Below, in pieces: positions 5,377 to 27,655 of a stretch of 27,655 nucleotides of DNA. A model generated the notes under the pieces. It was not told where the DNA came from, made no database searches, and was given only the letters and a program-made list of their open reading frames with translations. The first letter of the stretch is position 1. Every line of letters begins with the position of its first letter. The DNA is from a virus. The stretch lies in IMG/VR virus record IMGVR_UViG_3300031722_000135, positions 1 to 27,655 of that record; one strand, 5' to 3'. The position numbers were made by a program, and so were the translations under genes.

Positions 5377-5551
5377 AACAAAAACAAGGCTTTATAATCT
5401 GACTTATCAGGTCAGAAAAAAAGGATTCCGGATTGATCATAGACAGCGAACCATTTATTACAACTGGTCCGATCCGGAATCGACAAACGCAACGGTCGTA
5501 AAACGACTGCAAACTGAATTTAATTACGTTCTTCAATCAGAAATAAGATAA
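5357..5551 (+). CDS. Small basic protein
   Basis: This 64-aa protein is strongly basic (NDKRDKTKTRLYNLTYQVRK) and could bind nucleic acid. The ATG at 5357 was chosen over the TTG just before it. It overlaps the upstream gene by 20 bases, and its stop shares one base with the ATG of the VapE-like gene, so the two are probably coupled in translation. Its function is unknown, with a helper role in replication possible. Confidence 0.6.
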   Translation: MNDKRDKTKTRLYNLTYQVRKKGFRIDHRQRTIYYNWSDPESTNATVVKRLQTEFNYVLQSEIR

Positions 5552-6834
5552 TGGCACAACTTACAGCTCCAGCAAAACATGAATCACAAAAATCACTATT
5601 CGATGACAAAATACAATACGCGGCAAATTTCCTGCTGGAACATTACGAAATCAGGGTGTCAGTTCAGGACCCTTCAAAAAAGTACATAGCCTGTAAAGAT
5701 GCCGATCGCAAAGGCATTGAGCCAAAGTTTAGCGAAATATCCCTACACCTGGCAGCTAATAATGTAAATGTAGGTGATTCTATGCTTCGTAAAATTCTAT
5801 GCTCACCCTACTATATTCCACATTGCGACCCAATTAAAGATTACTTCGATAGTATTCGGGGTACCTGGGATGGAAAATCACAAATCGACATATTGTGCGA
5901 TCACATAAAGACCCGCATTTTCGACGAAAATCCCGCTGAATTTTACATTACCCGTACCAATAATCTTTTCCGTAAATGGCTTGTGTCGTGTGTGGCCATG
6001 TGGCTTAAAAATGAGTCGAACGACGTAACACTCGGACTCGTTCAGGCCGTGGGTGGATCCGGAAAAACATATCTCACCCGCTGGCTGCTTCCGGATGTAC
6101 TGAAAGACTATTACATAGAGTCTTCAAACAATCCGAAAAACTTCGATATAGAGGATGTGTATACGCGCTATATGATCATCAATTTCGAAGAATTAGTCGG
6201 ACTTAATAAGTCCACGATAAATACATGGAAAAAGGTACAAACAAATACTGAAATTGATATAAAACAACGTGGTGAAGAATTTCCTTCGAAAAAAACACGC
6301 ATTGGATGTGGGGTGTTAAGCACCAATGCCAACGAAGAAAATGGCGGTTTCATCCAGTCATGGTATGGCAGCGACACCCGCCGGTTGGGCTTGATCGAGA
6401 TAACCGAACTCGATCAGAATTATTCCAACGTGATCGATAAAAATCAGCTATGGGCCGAAGCACTCACCCTACTCGAAAGCAGCAAGTTCGAATATAGATT
6501 CAGACAACCAGATTACGAAGATTTCAATACCTATAATGCCCGGTACCGCTTCGAAACCGATGCCATGCGCGTACTCCAGCGATCTATCCGCCGGCCGGAA
6601 GCCGACGAAGAAGGCGAAAAACTCACTCCAACACAAATAATGCAACGCCTTGATACACTCCGAAAAATTAAATCGGACGAAATGAAAAACATTACTCCGC
6701 AAAAAATAGGACAAGCACTCAATTCTCTCGGTTACGAACAAATTTCGTATCGATCTAAAGCAGACCAAAACGAATCCAGAAAAGGATATCATATAGTATT
6801 TATAACTAACGAAGAAACTAATAAAAAGGAATAA
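5551..6834 (+). CDS. VapE-like P-loop ATPase, probable replication helicase
   Basis: This 427-aa protein matches the virulence-associated protein E family, which in phages and satellites acts as a replicative helicase or a primase-associated ATPase. The Walker A motif is AVGGSGKT (about residues 166-173), Walker B is YMIINFEEL (207-215), sensor 1 is VLSTNAN (255-261) and the arginine finger is in DTRRLG (275-280). The C-terminal region (about 350-427) looks like a winged helix. A full primase domain is not seen. It is shorter than VapE proteins fused to a primase. It is the only recognisable replication enzyme in the window, so the phage must use host polymerases. Confidence 0.85.
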   Translation: MAQLTAPAKHESQKSLFDDKIQYAANFLLEHYEIRVSVQDPSKKYIACKDADRKGIEPKFSEISLHLAANNVNVGDSMLRKILCSPYYIPHCDPIKDYFDSIRGTWDGKSQIDILCDHIKTRIFDENPAEFYITRTNNLFRKWLVSCVAMWLKNESNDVTLGLVQAVGGSGKTYLTRWLLPDVLKDYYIESSNNPKNFDIEDVYTRYMIINFEELVGLNKSTINTWKKVQTNTEIDIKQRGEEFPSKKTRIGCGVLSTNANEENGGFIQSWYGSDTRRLGLIEITELDQNYSNVIDKNQLWAEALTLLESSKFEYRFRQPDYEDFNTYNARYRFETDAMRVLQRSIRRPEADEEGEKLTPTQIMQRLDTLRKIKSDEMKNITPQKIGQALNSLGYEQISYRSKADQNESRKGYHIVFITNEETNKKE

Positions 6835-11168: not shown

Positions 11169-11977
11169 AAACCCCAATCACCTACTACGGCGGAAAACAA
11201 GGTCTGGCCGATACAATAATCAACATGCTGCCGGCTCACAAAATCTATTGTGAGCCGTTTTTCGGAGGTGGTGCCGTATTCTTCCGCAAGCCGAAAAGTT
11301 ATCTGGAGGTAATCAACGATATCGACGATCGGTTAATCAACTTCTACCAGGTAGCGCAAAACAATTTCGAGCAGCTTGAGATATTGATCAGTCAAACGTT
11401 GAACTCCGAGCGCATGTATCTGGCCGCAAAAGATATTTGGAATAATCGCGTGCCGGCAAGTGATGTCGAACGTGCGTGGTCGGTGTGGTTGATTACAAAC
11501 GGCAGCTTCGCCGGATCAATGCACGGTGGGTGGAAATGGTCGAATAGAACTGGAGGAAGCCACACCGGCGTTTATATAAAGAATAAACGCGCAAGTTTTG
11601 ATGCAGAGCTTCGCGATCGGTTACAAACGGTACAGATATCCTGCAGGGATGCTATCAAGGTAATACGCGAACGCGATACACCCGACACAGTTTTTTATTT
11701 GGATCCACCATACCCCGGATGGTATAATGGTCACTATACCGGGTACACTCACGCTAATCTATATGAATTACTGCAGGCACTTTCCACCATTCAAGGCAAA
11801 TTTATATTGTCCAACTATTGGAGTCAAACTCTGCGATATCACATTGCCCGGTACGGTTGGCAGTTCAAGCGCATTGAAGTATTGCTGAAAGTGGCGAATA
11901 CCGGATCTACCCCGGCAAAAACCCGAACCGAAATTCTGGTGTGGAACTTCGATCAACCAAAAGATCTATTCTCGTAA
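11165..11977 (+). CDS. D12-class N6-adenine DNA methyltransferase
   Basis: This 270-aa protein is a DNA adenine methyltransferase of the D12 (Dam-like) class. It has the N-terminal YYGGKQ motif (residues 7-12), the SAM-binding EPFFGGGAVF block (30-39), the ND.D segment (NDIDDRLINFYQ, 51-62) and the catalytic DPPY (180-183) followed by PGWYNGHYTGYTHANLYELL. The length is usual for the class. Its target site cannot be read from the sequence; GATC would be typical. It is the last gene of the early operon and is followed by a terminator. With the cytosine enzyme it gives the phage two kinds of methylation, probably against host restriction. Confidence 0.93.
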   Translation: MKTPITYYGGKQGLADTIINMLPAHKIYCEPFFGGGAVFFRKPKSYLEVINDIDDRLINFYQVAQNNFEQLEILISQTLNSERMYLAAKDIWNNRVPASDVERAWSVWLITNGSFAGSMHGGWKWSNRTGGSHTGVYIKNKRASFDAELRDRLQTVQISCRDAIKVIRERDTPDTVFYLDPPYPGWYNGHYTGYTHANLYELLQALSTIQGKFILSNYWSQTLRYHIARYGWQFKRIEVLLKVANTGSTPAKTRTEILVWNFDQPKDLFS

Positions 11978-11986
11978 TGTAATACA

Positions 11987-12017
11987 CAAAGATACTAAAT
12001 AAATGCAAGACACACAA
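11987..12017 (-). promoter_or_regulatory. Possible leftward promoter after the adenine methyltransferase gene
   Basis: On the minus strand TTG (12017-12015), a 20-base spacer and TATCTTTG (11994-11987) match the Bacteroidetes promoter. It would transcribe antisense to the end of the methyltransferase gene. It lies inside the terminator region, so it may be a chance match. Confidence 0.3.
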
Positions 12018-12035
12018 TGTTTTGCATTTATTTTT
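11997..12035 (+). terminator. Early operon terminator
   Basis: A 12-bp perfect stem (11997-12008 with 12022-12033) encloses a 13-base loop and ends in a short T run. It starts 20 bases after the methyltransferase stop codon, as expected for the end of the early operon. The stem is AT-rich, so its efficiency is uncertain. Confidence 0.65.
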
Positions 12036-12243
12036 CAAACTATTTTCAATCCACCACCACCCGAAAACATTACCCCACGCGGCCCTCTATTGCTCCCCAT
12101 GCTCCTGGCATCGTTCGTACAAGCTGTGTGACTGCTTACCGACTGTCCGACACCGACTCACTCACATATATATTATATTAATAAAAAATAAGTTTTAATA
12201 AATATAAATTTTATTGTAACATGAACGAAGAATCTAAACACCT

Positions 12244-12429
12244 AACCTACCACATACCACAATCGTGGTTAATTAGCTGAAATTCAAATATAAATATGTG
12301 GTAGGTATCTGCAATTATAACAATTACCACACATCACCACAACCCACCACAAAACAAACCTACCACAAGCCTACCACACTATAACGAGTTTATATACTGC
12401 ACATTAAAACTTGTGGTATGTGGTAGGTT
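12244..12429. repeat. CCTACCACA iteron-like array within an 18-bp inverted repeat
   Basis: An 18-base arm at 12244-12261 is repeated as its exact reverse complement at 12412-12429. The 9-mer CCTACCACA occurs three times on the plus strand (12246-12254, 12359-12367, 12370-12378) and twice on the minus strand (12297-12305, 12419-12427). Degenerate copies of ACCACA lie at 12326-12331, 12336-12341 and 12346-12351. The arrangement, next to an AT-rich stretch, fits protein-bound iterons of a replication origin or an operator array. The binding protein is not known. Confidence 0.7.
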
Positions 12430-12441
12430 ACTTTTTATTCG

Positions 12442-12549
12442 ATGAAAAAAAACAGAAAAGCAACCGAAAATCAGCCAAAAAATAACACTAAATATTTGAT
12501 TATTAGAAAATTAAATTGTATTTTTACTATCGAATATACTCTTTTTTAA
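12442..12549 (+). CDS. Possible small basic peptide
   Basis: A 35-aa reading frame (MKKNRKATENQPKNNTKYLI, then a hydrophobic end) starts just after the iteron array. It is basic at the start and Ile/Leu-rich at the end. No homolog is recognised and the base composition is that of the surrounding AT-rich gap, so it may be a chance frame. Confidence 0.2.
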   Translation: MKKNRKATENQPKNNTKYLIIRKLNCIFTIEYTLF

Positions 12550-12571: not shown

Positions 12572-13057
12572 ATGATTTCAGTCAAAATAACTATAAAACC
12601 ACATCTGGCCGAGTACTTGATTGGTAAATACAACAATCATGATACGTCAAATCCAATCCAGTTTTCGGATAATCTTGATCTATACCATACTATTTACGAT
12701 TTGTCGGAACGTTGCCCGGCCAATGTCAGACAAATAGATGTCGGAAATCTTTGGTTCTATCTTCCCGAGCGGGAAAATGGAAAATCAACACAGGTATTTA
12801 ATTACTTCGGTCGCCGATCGGTTGAATTAATCGAAGAACGAATCGAAGCAAAATTCTGGGCCGATATCCACGACTACATGGATTATGAAAAACACATGAA
12901 TGGAGTCGACTTCAAAGACTCCGCGCATATATTCATGACAAAATATGGCATCGAATCTATAACGATAGATGCATTACTTAAAAACTACCAACGGTGGCGC
13001 GATAAATGCCGAAATCGGAAAAAGAGGAGAAGATATAGCTCCAATAAGGTTAAATAA
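12572..13057 (+). CDS. Basic protein, possible late-gene regulator
   Basis: This 161-aa protein is not recognised. The body is mixed and globular (ISVKITIKPHLAEYLIGKYN to WFYLPERENGKS), and the C-terminal part (about 125-161) has the look of a DNA-binding helix pair (YGIESITIDALLKNYQRWRD) followed by a strongly basic tail (KCRNRKKRRRYSS). It is the first gene after the iteron array and is followed by a non-coding stretch with three 11-bp repeats ahead of the head operon. Position and basic tail suggest a transcription activator of the late genes, which is an inference. Confidence 0.6.
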   Translation: MISVKITIKPHLAEYLIGKYNNHDTSNPIQFSDNLDLYHTIYDLSERCPANVRQIDVGNLWFYLPERENGKSTQVFNYFGRRSVELIEERIEAKFWADIHDYMDYEKHMNGVDFKDSAHIFMTKYGIESITIDALLKNYQRWRDKCRNRKKRRRYSSNKVK

Positions 13058-24613: not shown

Positions 24614-25542
24614 AAACGATCCACCTAAAACGATCTACAATCAACATCCCCGAATGTTGGGAAGATGTGCCACCTAAGCATATACCATTTGTTTTCCGCA
24701 ATATGATATTGCTTTTTGCAAATGAAATTACACCATTTCAGTTTAAGCTCAATTTGCTTATAGAATTCACCGGTTACATGCCGGCGAAAACACGCGGGTT
24801 CTGGTTTGGGCTCAAACACTTTTTCTATATCATCTTTTATAGACTATTTTTAGGAAAAGAGCGATTTCGTGAAATGCTGGAGCATGAAGCCGAAACACAG
24901 GAAAACATCCAGTTCAATCTGATACAACTGGCTGAGAGATTTAATTTCGCATTTGAGCTAGAAGAAAGTAAGATCATTCCTAACTACTATTTTGCCCGAA
25001 ACCCTATTGTTCTTTACTCAGATTGCGCCCCGATGTTCGATCGTGATGTAACCGTGGAAACAAATATAACCGCCAAACAATACACAGATTGTATGGATTT
25101 GCTTCAGGCATATAATGAATCGGGCGACGTCAATGTCAAGGCTTATTGCATGAATAAAATTATGTGTGTGCTGTACGGTTTTCCGATGCATGTGGTGAAG
25201 AAATTTTCCCCTGAAATACCATTTGGGGTGATGTATTGGTTTACCGGCATTATCAAGTTTTTTCGCGAACATTCAACCTACAGCATTCTGTACAGTCGCA
25301 AAGGAGGTGAAGATTTCGACCCCGATAAAATAAACCTGGGTTTAAGCGAAACTATGCTTTTCCTCGAAAAAGAAGGATATTCTTTTGTTGAAGATAAAAC
25401 TATAATTGATTTTTTCAATGCTCAGATCAAAGCATTGAAAGATTCTATCAATAACGCGCTGGCTTCGGGCATCAAGCTTGATGAACTGGCACAGCGGACC
25501 GGATTAAGTATAACCGATATAAACAGATTAAGCAATGAATAA
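24610..25542 (+). CDS. Late phage protein of unknown function
   Basis: This 310-aa protein is not recognised. It has a hydrophobic, aromatic segment (FWFGLKHFFYIIFYRLFLG, about residues 73-91) that could be membrane-interacting, then mixed helices (EHEAETQENIQFNLIQLAER). The last 27 residues (LDELAQRTGLSITDINRLS) resemble an HTH. The start overlaps the Ntn hydrolase stop by 4 bases and the end overlaps the next gene by 8 bases, so it is part of one translationally coupled run. A role in head, tail or lysis cannot be chosen. Confidence 0.6.
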   Translation: MKTIHLKRSTINIPECWEDVPPKHIPFVFRNMILLFANEITPFQFKLNLLIEFTGYMPAKTRGFWFGLKHFFYIIFYRLFLGKERFREMLEHEAETQENIQFNLIQLAERFNFAFELEESKIIPNYYFARNPIVLYSDCAPMFDRDVTVETNITAKQYTDCMDLLQAYNESGDVNVKAYCMNKIMCVLYGFPMHVVKKFSPEIPFGVMYWFTGIIKFFREHSTYSILYSRKGGEDFDPDKINLGLSETMLFLEKEGYSFVEDKTIIDFFNAQIKALKDSINNALASGIKLDELAQRTGLSITDINRLSNE

Positions 25543-26092
25543 GCAGGATTACATCATTGATATTTACAAATATTTTTCACGGTTTGTTCCTAAAACCGTG
25601 CTGACCGATTTGTTTTCACAAACAACTGAAACTAAAAAAGAAGGTTACGACGAATTAGTTTCGGACATGCTTAATCAGTCTGACGACTTGGTGTTCCCCG
25701 GTATTGGTACATTTATCGTTTCGGCCGATCGAAAATACGTAGAGGATAAAATAAGTAATTCTAAAGGATTTGTTCTATTCGTCGAATACGGAGAATTTTC
25801 TTATAATCCGCTAACCACCGATGGAGTTAGTGAAAAAATAGGTATAAATCTTTGTCGTGATTTCAACTTTAGCAACAACGATAATCTAAACGAAGCCTTG
25901 CTGATGAACGAGTGTAACAATGTGCTGAATGCCATTTTGAACCAAATGCAGACGGATCAGACAGAACTCAATTCATGCGGGTATCTGAGTTTAATAAAAT
26001 TTCCAGCTGATATTTATCCCATCGCACCCGAAACTTTTTATGGGCGAAGCGGTTGGGCGGCCATGTTTGAAAATTCAAAAGAAATATTATGA
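25535..26092 (+). CDS. Late phage protein of unknown function
   Basis: This 185-aa protein has an N-terminal helix (NKQDYIIDIYKYFSRFVPKT), a central beta-rich region (DDLVFPGIGTFIVSADRKYV, then LFVEYGEFSYNPL) and a C-terminal part with NECNNVLNAILNQMQTDQTE. Layout and size are compatible with a phage neck or head-completion protein, but this is a guess. It overlaps its neighbours (8 bases before, ATGA with SufE after), which ties it to the late operon. Confidence 0.6.
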   Translation: MNKQDYIIDIYKYFSRFVPKTVLTDLFSQTTETKKEGYDELVSDMLNQSDDLVFPGIGTFIVSADRKYVEDKISNSKGFVLFVEYGEFSYNPLTTDGVSEKIGINLCRDFNFSNNDNLNEALLMNECNNVLNAILNQMQTDQTELNSCGYLSLIKFPADIYPIAPETFYGRSGWAAMFENSKEIL

Positions 26093-26478
26093 CACTAGAA
26101 GAGAAACAACAGGAATTTATCGATATGTTCAACGATTTGGGCGAATGGAACAATAAATTTGATTATCTCATTTCGTTATCCGACGAACAACAACCCATGC
26201 CGGCACACATGGTGATACCCGAAAATAAAATACAAGGCTGTGTGAGCCAAACATATTTTTGCTGTACCTATCTGAACGACGTAGCACATATCTACGGACA
26301 GTCTAATGCCTGCATACCTAGCGGCCTTATTGCTGTGGTGAAAGAACTGTTTCAAGGCTATACACGACAGGAAATTCACGATACAGTAATAAAATTCCAT
26401 GCTGCCACCGAACTATTACAACACCTAACCCCTGCACGTTCCGGGGCTTTACTTCAAATTCTTTCTCGTATCATTTGA
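26089..26478 (+). CDS. sufE: SufE-family sulfur-transfer protein
   Basis: This 129-aa protein matches SufE, which takes persulfide sulfur from the cysteine desulfurase SufS and passes it to the SufBCD scaffold for Fe-S cluster building. The active-site Cys is Cys51, the same number as in E. coli SufE, in the block IQGCVSQ. It is followed by GLIAVVKEL (about 79-87) and by LTPARSGALLQI (about 113-124), all key family blocks. Compared with E. coli it lacks about the last 10 residues, and the usual GCQSQVW has VSQTYF. Its ATG overlaps the stop of the preceding late gene (ATGA), so it is coupled to phage genes and is not a stray host gene. Confidence 0.9.
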   Translation: MTLEEKQQEFIDMFNDLGEWNNKFDYLISLSDEQQPMPAHMVIPENKIQGCVSQTYFCCTYLNDVAHIYGQSNACIPSGLIAVVKELFQGYTRQEIHDTVIKFHAATELLQHLTPARSGALLQILSRII

Positions 26479-26508
26479 TTTGTTTCATTTTATTGGTTAA
26501 TATGAAGA

Positions 26509-26540
26509 GATGCCTGGGCTGTGAAGTTCGGGCATTTTGT
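26509..26540 (+). terminator. Weak terminator after sufE
   Basis: A stem of about 7 bp including a G-T pair (26509-26515 with 26530-26536) has a 14-base loop and is followed by TTTTGTTTG. It lies 30 bases after the sufE stop codon and marks the likely end of the late operon, but the stem is short. Confidence 0.45.
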
Positions 26541-26588
26541 TTGTAATTATAAATATCGTTAATATCTAAAATAAATCTTGCTATTTAC

Positions 26589-26618
26589 TTGCAAATGGTA
26601 GAAAATTGACTACCTTTG
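26589..26618 (+). promoter_or_regulatory. Promoter of the hicAB genes
   Basis: TTG (26589-26591), a 19-base spacer and TACCTTTG (26611-26618) match the Bacteroidetes promoter. It lies 33 bases before the hicA ATG, with a start site near 26625, so the pair is expressed independently of the phage late operon. Confidence 0.65.
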
Positions 26619-26651
26619 TATCGAGTTTAATAAACGAAAGCTCTTTGAAAT

Positions 26652-26852
26652 ATGAAGTATACTGAATTCCATCGTTGGCTTCGAAAGCACAGAGACGAAT
26701 CTGAGCGTGATTGGGAGTGGACAGGAGAATCTTCAGGTAGCCATTATATCTACAAAGATAAAAATGGACTAAGATATCCTGTTCCTTATCATGGAGCTAA
26801 AGAATTTCCGGAAGGATTAAGAAAAAGAATTTTAAAGGATATGGGGTTTTAA
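26652..26852 (+). CDS. hicA: HicA-family mRNA interferase toxin
   Basis: This 66-aa protein is a HicA toxin, a small RNA-cleaving protein with a double-stranded-RNA-binding-like fold. The catalytic His is His31 in GSHYIY, and the conserved ending is VPYHGAKEFPEGLRKRILKD followed by MGF. The length is close to the usual 60 residues. The first helix (MKYTEFHRWLRKH) also fits the family. The HicB antitoxin gene lies 186 bases downstream, further than usual. It may keep the phage in the population by addiction, or defend against other phages. Confidence 0.85.
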   Translation: MKYTEFHRWLRKHRDESERDWEWTGESSGSHYIYKDKNGLRYPVPYHGAKEFPEGLRKRILKDMGF

Positions 26853-26870
26853 TTCCCATATCCTTTAAAA
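26830..26870 (+). other. 16-bp hairpin over the hicA stop codon
   Basis: Bases 26830-26845 pair perfectly with 26855-26870 around a 9-base loop that contains the stop codon region of hicA (26850-26852). No T run follows on the plus strand. It could stabilise or attenuate the mRNA between toxin and antitoxin genes and so set their ratio. Confidence 0.65.
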
Positions 26871-26967
26871 GGAAACTTAATATATTATCAACCCCACCTA
26901 CGTTTGTACCAAACGAAAAAAAACAAACTTACATACAGAAAAAAAAGAACACAATTTTTTGTTAGAC

Positions 26968-27021
26968 TAAATGATTAAATGATTAAATGACAAAAATGAC
27001 TAAATGCAAAAATGACTAAAT
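26968..27021. repeat. TAAATGAY-type short repeats ahead of hicB
   Basis: TAAATGAT (26968-26975 and 26976-26983), TAAATGAC (26984-26991), AAAAATGAC (26992-27000), TAAATGC (27001-27007), AAAAATGAC (27008-27016) and TAAAT (27017-27021) form a run of about seven degenerate copies. Each copy offers an ATG followed directly by an overlapping stop, which might delay ribosomes before the hicB start at 27039. Similar ATGA-rich runs occur ahead of other Bacteroidetes genes, so it may have no special role. Confidence 0.65.
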
Positions 27022-27038
27022 AGACAAAACAAACAATT

Positions 27039-27434
27039 ATGAAGGCAATTATTATAAAAATAGAAAAAGGAACCGACCAATATGGTGCTTGGGCTGAAGG
27101 TATTCCTGGAATATACGGTGCGGGGGACACCGTAAAAGAAGTCAAAGAGAATATTTTGGAAGCTATCACATTATATAAAAAGTATAATGAAGATATTCCA
27201 GAGGCTTTAAAAGGAAATTATGAGATTAAATGGGAATTCGATACGGCTTCATATTTAGAGTATATTTCAGTAATTTTCACAAAGTCGGGTTTAGAAAAAA
27301 TCACAGGCATCAATCAAAAACAATTAGGTCATTATTCTACAGGTTTGAAAAAGCCAAGGAAAACTCAAATTGAAAAGATTGATACAGGGATTCATAAATT
27401 TATGGATGATTTAATGCAGATTCATTTAGTGTGA
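27039..27434 (+). CDS. hicB: HicB-family antitoxin with HTH domain
   Basis: This 131-aa protein is the HicB antitoxin. The N-terminal part (residues 1-65) is the partial RNase-H-like HicB fold (IKIEKGTDQYGAWAEGIPGI, then GAGDTVKEVKENILEAITLY). The C-terminal part (about 78-131) is an XRE-type DNA-binding domain (KSGLEKITGINQKQLGHYST). Together these neutralise HicA and repress the operon. The order hicA-hicB is usual. The intergenic space is unusually long and contains a hairpin and short repeats. Confidence 0.88.
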   Translation: MKAIIIKIEKGTDQYGAWAEGIPGIYGAGDTVKEVKENILEAITLYKKYNEDIPEALKGNYEIKWEFDTASYLEYISVIFTKSGLEKITGINQKQLGHYSTGLKKPRKTQIEKIDTGIHKFMDDLMQIHLV

Positions 27435-27452
27435 ATCCAAAATACTATATTA

Positions 27453-27481
27453 AAAGCCTCACAGAAATGTGGGGCTTTTTT
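27453..27481 (+). terminator. Terminator after hicB
   Basis: An 11-bp stem with one G-T pair (27453-27463 with 27468-27478) has a GAAA tetraloop and leads into a T run (27476-27481). It lies 18 bases after the hicB stop codon and ends the toxin-antitoxin transcript. Confidence 0.85.
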
Positions 27482-27506
27482 GCGTTAATACTTTTTTATA
27501 TCTTTG
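27480..27506 (+). promoter_or_regulatory. Promoter of the secreted-protein gene
   Basis: TATCTTTG (27499-27506) is a full match to the -7 element; TTG lies at 27480-27482 with a spacer of 16 bases, shorter than the usual 19-20. Transcription would start near 27513, about 26 bases before the ATG. Confidence 0.5.
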
Positions 27507-27538
27507 TAACTCATATTCATTACTAAAAATTATCACGT

Positions 27539-27655
27539 ATGAAAAAAACTATTCTTTTATCTATTCTGTCTATTCTGTATTTTAGCAGTGCAAATGCGCA
27601 AGAACCTTTATCATTCTCAAAAGTAATTCAAGCTGATTCTGCGAAAAAGGAAATT
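27539..27655 (+). CDS. Secreted protein, start only (cut by window edge)
   Basis: The first 39 residues are visible. MKKTILLSILSILYFSSANA is a typical signal peptide with cleavage likely after Ala20 (ANA-QE), so the mature protein is exported past the inner membrane. The next residues (EPLSFSKVIQADSAKKEI) resemble the start of DUF4468-type secreted proteins of Bacteroidetes, but too little is present to be sure. It has its own promoter and could be phage cargo or a host gene. Confidence 0.7.
   Translation, partial: MKKTILLSILSILYFSSANAQEPLSFSKVIQADSAKKEI

Follow-up and report, generated by a model that had tools for sequence, protein, structure and literature searches.

What is the function of a dense array of short repeats that lies in a 594-bp intergenic gap of a phage genome, and which protein reads it? 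The gap, in a 27,655-bp virus record (the window, meaning the whole stretch of DNA analysed), is bordered by an adenine methyltransferase gene (ending at 11977) and a gene that starts at 12572. The initial annotation proposed either a replication origin or a large operator, and named the VapE-like ATPase and the product of the 12572 gene as candidate binders. Comparative evidence strongly favors the first of these proposals and does not favor the operator. By sequence comparison and by analogy with the SaPI Rep and pri-rep-ori precedent, the array (12243–12430) is very probably a phage replication origin with VapE as its initiator and helicase (probability about 0.85).

The array is built from one word and its variants. 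Exact copies of CCTACCACA occur three times on the plus strand (12246–12254, 12359–12367, and 12370–12378) and twice on the minus strand (12297–12305 and 12419–12427), just as first described, and the degenerate copies claimed with them were recovered as three one-mismatch copies within the array (12253 and 12343 on the plus strand, 12412 on the minus strand). A repeat search identified perfect inverted arms, with TAACCTACCACATACCACAA at 12243–12262 and its complement at 12411–12430. The arms are exact and paired as annotated, but they are 20 bp long rather than 18 and are separated by 148 bp rather than 150. In the site map, each arm holds two tandem sites 7 bp apart, with 7-mers at 12248 and 12255 on the plus strand at the left and at 12412 and 12419 on the minus strand at the right, the latter pair also supported by relatives. 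Between the arms are a single inverted site, TACCACA (12297–12303, minus strand, within the exact 9-mer at 12297–12305), three plus-strand sites at 12325, 12335, and 12345 (12325–12351) in 10-bp steps of about one helical turn, and two further plus-strand sites in exact copies of CCTACCACA (12359–12378), with 7-mers at 12361 and 12372 that are 11 bp apart. Expressed as 7-mer sites, the window has gaps of 7-42-28-10-10-16-11-40-7 on strands ++-+++++--, a pattern that we refer to as the ruler.

Repeats of this kind might be chance or unselected features of AT-rich intergenic DNA. Five identical 9-mers are not by themselves significant in such a region, as shuffled sequences also reached a maximum of five. 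The cluster and the arms, unlike the bare 9-mer count, do stand out statistically. Allowing up to one mismatch, CCTACCACA occurs 11 times in the whole window compared to 2.7 expected and a maximum of seven in 100 dinucleotide shuffles. When the 594-bp region was shuffled 1000 times, the longest inverted repeat averaged 9 bp and never exceeded 14 bp, compared to the observed 20 bp. Word, arms, and spacing are also kept in relatives, as described below, and this conservation already refutes chance, which retains virtually no probability.

An AT-rich stretch precedes the array at 12166–12222, where the initial annotation had placed it, and is a candidate DNA-unwinding element. The 100 bp to the left of type C arrays (those of VapE phages, defined below) have an AT content of 59%–87%. 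Further upstream, an inverted repeat search found a 16-bp imperfect hairpin followed by a T run (11997–12033); it may tentatively mark the end of the early operon and is absent from the terminator-scan output. No matches to the DnaA box TTWTNCACA were found on either strand between 11901 and 12700. An Rfam search gave no matches, and a DNA-level search of phage records returned a low-complexity match only. GC skew, a check suggested at the outset, does not switch at the array, either in the window itself or when averaged over 62 relatives, and is uninformative.

The VapE gene (5551–6834, plus strand) codes for a VapE-like, putatively self-loading helicase (Pfam PF05272 and PF12990; PHROG DNA helicase) with a GGSGKT P-loop and a C-terminal DUF3874 domain. 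No primase domain was detected in the family search. The structure model (pLDDT 84) has its best PDB match in 7pds, PriRep1 of SaPI5 with DNA (E value 2.7e-13), followed by NrS-1 and D5/E5 helicases; a profile search against PDB sequences produced no detectable match. Residues 356–417 are predicted to form a strand-helix-helix-strand-strand arrangement that resembles a winged helix. Within the predicted wing, residue 409 is S in four sequences with the word TACCACA, P in ten with TACTACA, and T in four with TACAACC. Residue 409 is a possible specificity determinant, but these alignments are suggestive only: the word groups are clades, two of the P sequences (L074 and L121) look like one phage, and three other VapE positions also separate the first two word groups.

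To identify what the array travels with, homologs of the 12572 gene were sought in viral contigs and in one genome per species, which yielded about 95 loci that include Porphyromonas gingivalis phages and Bacteroides phage BT-TP2. Most of these homologs have a dense short-repeat array upstream, which usually outranks every other repeat cluster of the scanned stretch. Its words are unlike that of the window and include GTAACAAA, GTTACAAA, GTCACAAA, CGTCCAACA, CCTACAAA, CTACTACA, CTTACAACC, and others. The primase-helicase gene in the early modules of these phages is of one of three types: type A (~975 residues), type B (a DnaG-like primase fusion of ~1330 residues), or type C, which is VapE and is the type found in the window. 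We counted 78 loci that have a 12572 homolog and at least 4 kb of upstream sequence, calling arrays by word score. An array is present in 62 of 64 loci with a type A, B, or C helicase and absent from 13 of 14 loci without one, although the latter keep the 12572 gene (Fisher P value of 6e-12, in which independence is overstated because the loci are related to each other). More generally, because the whole genome, helicase and array included, has a common ancestry, neither this test nor the correlations below are independent. Words and arrays were also scored by the same scan that found them, except in the set of loci fetched by VapE.

The exceptions are few. Both helicase-bearing loci without an array by word score, L044 and L067, are type C; L044 has a clear ruler fit and L067 a borderline one. 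The single array without a recognized helicase is in L051, a contig that begins 6 kb upstream. Six of the 13 array-less loci carry other initiator-type proteins, either a winged-helix-like protein with weak family support (L048, L055, L073, and L083) or a DnaD-like/replication-initiation protein (L049 and L071), and the remainder are mostly chromosomal with distant 12572 homologs. L073 is among the closest 12572 homologs to the window (53%–54% identity) and has no array. The three closest VapE relatives (L022, L023, and L024; 62%–69% identity) have the same word, arms, and layout, an invariant arm core (CCTACCACATACCACAA), and an AT-rich block in the same place. The gene 3' of their arrays has no tblastn similarity to 12572, and a very remote relationship is possible. 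The array is present in related phages; its absence from close relatives, named at the outset as a refuting case, did not occur.

Array words also covary with the helicase in type A. Among these loci, word similarity correlates with helicase identity (rho of 0.87) and continues to do so given 12572 (partial correlation of 0.73). There is no residual correlation of word with 12572 given helicase (0.02, permutation P value of 0.41, among related loci). In type B, which has 12 loci, the correlation of word and helicase gave no signal, and when types are pooled, both helicase and 12572 retain some correlation with word. The C-terminal 130 residues of the type A helicase predict the word worse than the whole protein, and the correlation therefore does not point to the C-terminal domain in particular.

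Spacing was compared using the window ruler as a template with small slack, giving a score out of 70. Type C arrays score 59–69, compared to background maxima of 52–56, and at ten type C loci the ruler outscores all 24,000–55,000 other placements. In nine of ten arrays, none of 500 shuffles of the ruler gaps and strands reached the observed score; in the tenth, L067, nine of 500 did. Arrays on which the window ruler beats its shuffled versions include four with a clearly different word. Because shuffled rulers lose on the same arrays, it is the spacing that is conserved and not only repeat density. L074 (CTACTACA), L016 (CTTACAACC), and L025 (TTTCAACC) have nearly the same gaps as the window with different words, and VapE phages that fit the ruler use TACTACA, TACAACC, or TTTCAAC as alternatives. 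The single inverted site is kept in relatives at its ruler position 40–43 bp past the second site, and the 10–11 bp spacing of inner sites is kept in L023, L074, L016, and L025. The window ruler does not fit type A or type B arrays. A separate type A ruler suits many type A arrays, though not all: the fit is clear in L007, L059, L047, L053, L026, and L079 and not in L036, L080, L072, or L057. Few type B arrays match a ruler of their own type.

An out-of-sample set was obtained by fetching loci with VapE as the sole query. Where VapE is at least 41% identical, the ruler has a single best placement in 14 of 15 loci that lies 3' of VapE (scores of 59–70 out of 70, compared to background maxima of 51–56). 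The fifteenth, L120, ends 4 kb past VapE, and in L119, apparently its sister, the array is 6.1 kb past VapE. Some of these contigs were already in the first set, and the additional evidence is mostly that of L119, L121, L122, L124, L127, L128, and L129. The array starts about 85–210 bp past the VapE stop codon in ten loci (L122, L125, L126, L128, L130, L131, L134, L151, L155, and L161). It is not immediately 3' of VapE in the window (5.4 kb), L119, L116, or L117, and in L135 (12535–12720) and L150 (13803–13990) it directly follows terL, ~9 kb from VapE and not between the early and late modules. Results are mixed for VapE homologs of less than 40% identity, where many loci lack a clear ruler match, so the rule is limited to a subfamily. 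In one further locus (L157, 9956–11594) the VapE frame is apparently split, with the C-terminal part in a separate open reading frame (11184–11594), and the array is still 3'. VapE, one of the two binders first suggested, is the better candidate from these comparisons: the array tracks the helicase, fits a VapE-specific ruler, and is usually just 3' of VapE.

The other suggested binder is the product of the first late gene (12572–13057, plus strand), a conserved 161-residue protein defined here by a family alignment. It has no Pfam, NCBIfam, or PHROG family, and its model has no PDB fold match at E ≤ 0.001 and none to a known DNA-binding fold. A promoter-like block, TTTG-N20-TATTTTTAC (12495–12527, plus strand), was found by pattern match, is conserved in L022–L024, and is putatively that of the late operon; we take it to be of the Bacteroidota −33/−7 type. 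The array is 65 bp upstream of this block and, in most relatives, just upstream of a 12572 homolog, as would be expected of a large operator through which a phage regulator, such as the 12572 product, controls the late promoter. The array is not, however, confined to the 12572 family beside a late promoter. Phages with good 12572 homologs and other initiators lack it (L073 included), phages with a close VapE and no recognizable 12572 keep it, and L135 and L150 have it after the terminase gene. With helicase identity given, 12572 also adds nothing to type A word similarity. We dropped the 12572 protein as a binder on these association grounds and for want of a fold match; its gene is probably only a neighbor of the array, and an operator is improbable.

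Placement bears on two further possibilities. The array could serve as an origin and, in addition, tie late transcription to replication, with Rep binding or fork passage altering the late promoter. This extends the origin reading rather than excluding it and fits the usual place of the array between early and late modules beside a conserved promoter block, but the position after terL in L135 and L150 indicates that coupling is not required, and we consider such a dual role rather unlikely. The same two loci would suit a packaging (pac/cos) site or a partition centromere read by terminase or a ParB-like protein, elements in which clustered inverted sites also occur. This is very improbable: presence of the array goes with helicase type, yet array-bearing and array-less phages have terminase and capsid genes in common, and no ParA or ParB was recognized among the window genes scanned.

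An origin served by VapE has counterparts in several known systems. The primase-helicase alpha of phage P4 is phage-borne and recognizes short iterons through its C-terminus; it is a primase-helicase fusion and needs a second site (crr), whereas the window has a VapE without a detected primase domain and one array only. Origins of the lambda O type likewise combine repeated initiator sites with AT-rich DNA, but they have their iterons within the initiator gene and recruit the helicase of the host, unlike the intergenic array and phage-encoded helicase of the window. The closest likeness is to the rep-ori of SaPIs and other PICIs. The SaPI Rep C-terminal domain binds iterons directly 3' of the Rep gene (PMC7581432), and pri-rep-ori segments drive plasmid replication (PMC6092414). 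The VapE phages share with these a helicase of the same fold class, whose C-terminal domain is likewise expected, from its model and by analogy, to read the iterons. They partly resemble them in having two outer sets of short iterons placed about AT-rich spacers and, in most relatives, a putative origin 3' of the helicase gene. They differ in having one ordered array of ~180 bp, in which inverted outer pairs flank the array and site-free spacers, with a further set of sites inside them in a helical-phase cluster. The putative origin of the window is also 5.4 kb from the helicase gene, and there is no detectable sequence similarity to solved PDB chains. Unlike PICI satellites, which are small islands without capsid and terminase genes, the genomes here are those of phages that encode a capsid, a terminase, and a portal. 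In the window, family searches recognized the VapE-like helicase, an S49 head protease, and two DNA methyltransferases; the assignment of capsid, terminase, and portal comes from gene position and from homologs in annotated P. gingivalis phages, and the relatives point to a Bacteroidota origin of the window.

Binding, melting, loading, and replication may be pictured from the observed array, its conservation and ruler, the helicase association, and the fold resemblance of VapE. Several VapE copies would bind the 7–9 bp sites through the C-terminal winged-helix domain. The fixed spacing, with outer pairs facing inward and inner sites one helical turn apart, would order a complex over ~180 bp, possibly as two helicase rings. 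Flanking AT-rich DNA would then melt, and the VapE helicase would load itself without the host DnaA/DnaC route. Counting against an origin are the lack of a skew switch, the 5.4 kb between array and VapE, the uncorrelated type B loci, and L051. More tentatively, these phages could have a family of origins in which spacing is conserved with a ~180-bp ruler occupied by one VapE assembly, the word and the winged-helix domain drift together so that each phage has its own replication identity, and parallel arrays with other rulers serve the two further primase-helicase types in related phages. Geminiviruses offer a parallel without claimed homology, with rolling-circle Rep and ssDNA genomes: according to one account, closely related viruses have different short iterons but keep the layout and the pairing with Rep (PMC12548392).

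The mechanistic kind is already known from SaPI/PICI rep-ori, and the authors who described this origin plan regarded it as restricted to PICIs (PMC6092414). The phage version, the fixed ruler, and the drifting word appear to be undescribed. The available part of a paper on the P. gingivalis relatives mentions neither iterons nor a replication origin, and a full-text search of open-licence papers for iterons in Bacteroides phages found nothing. Our reading would extend this origin plan beyond PICIs towards ordinary temperate phages and would assign an initiator role to VapE-like genes, which are often annotated only as virulence-associated. The ruler would offer a way of finding such origins from sequence, and natural pairs with the same spacing and different words could be used to study self-loading helicase assembly and origin choice.

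Several other features were recorded in these loci. Comparable arrays upstream of a 12572 homolog occur in L027, L030, L031, L026, L010, L018, and others, which include P. gingivalis phages, many gut phages, and BT-TP2, an isolated phage of B. thetaiotaomicron with an array of type A; these other-word arrays adjoin the two other primase-helicase types and are candidate origins. Seven distant 12572 homologs (L104, L107–L111, and L114; 30%–37% identity) are in Bacteroides chromosomes with no phage genes around them and adjoin a tyrosine recombinase and apparent capsule-locus genes. Reverse-transcriptase-like genes in L048 (6461–7645), L055 (7201–8256), and L032 (952–1905) are beside short proteins with SASGF-type ends and are possible diversity-generating retroelements. 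The right end of the window has SufE-like and HicA/HicB-like genes (26089–27434). Positions 25500–27655 are 100% identical in a second virus contig (G001) that continues for 17 kb, which indicates that the window is a fragment.
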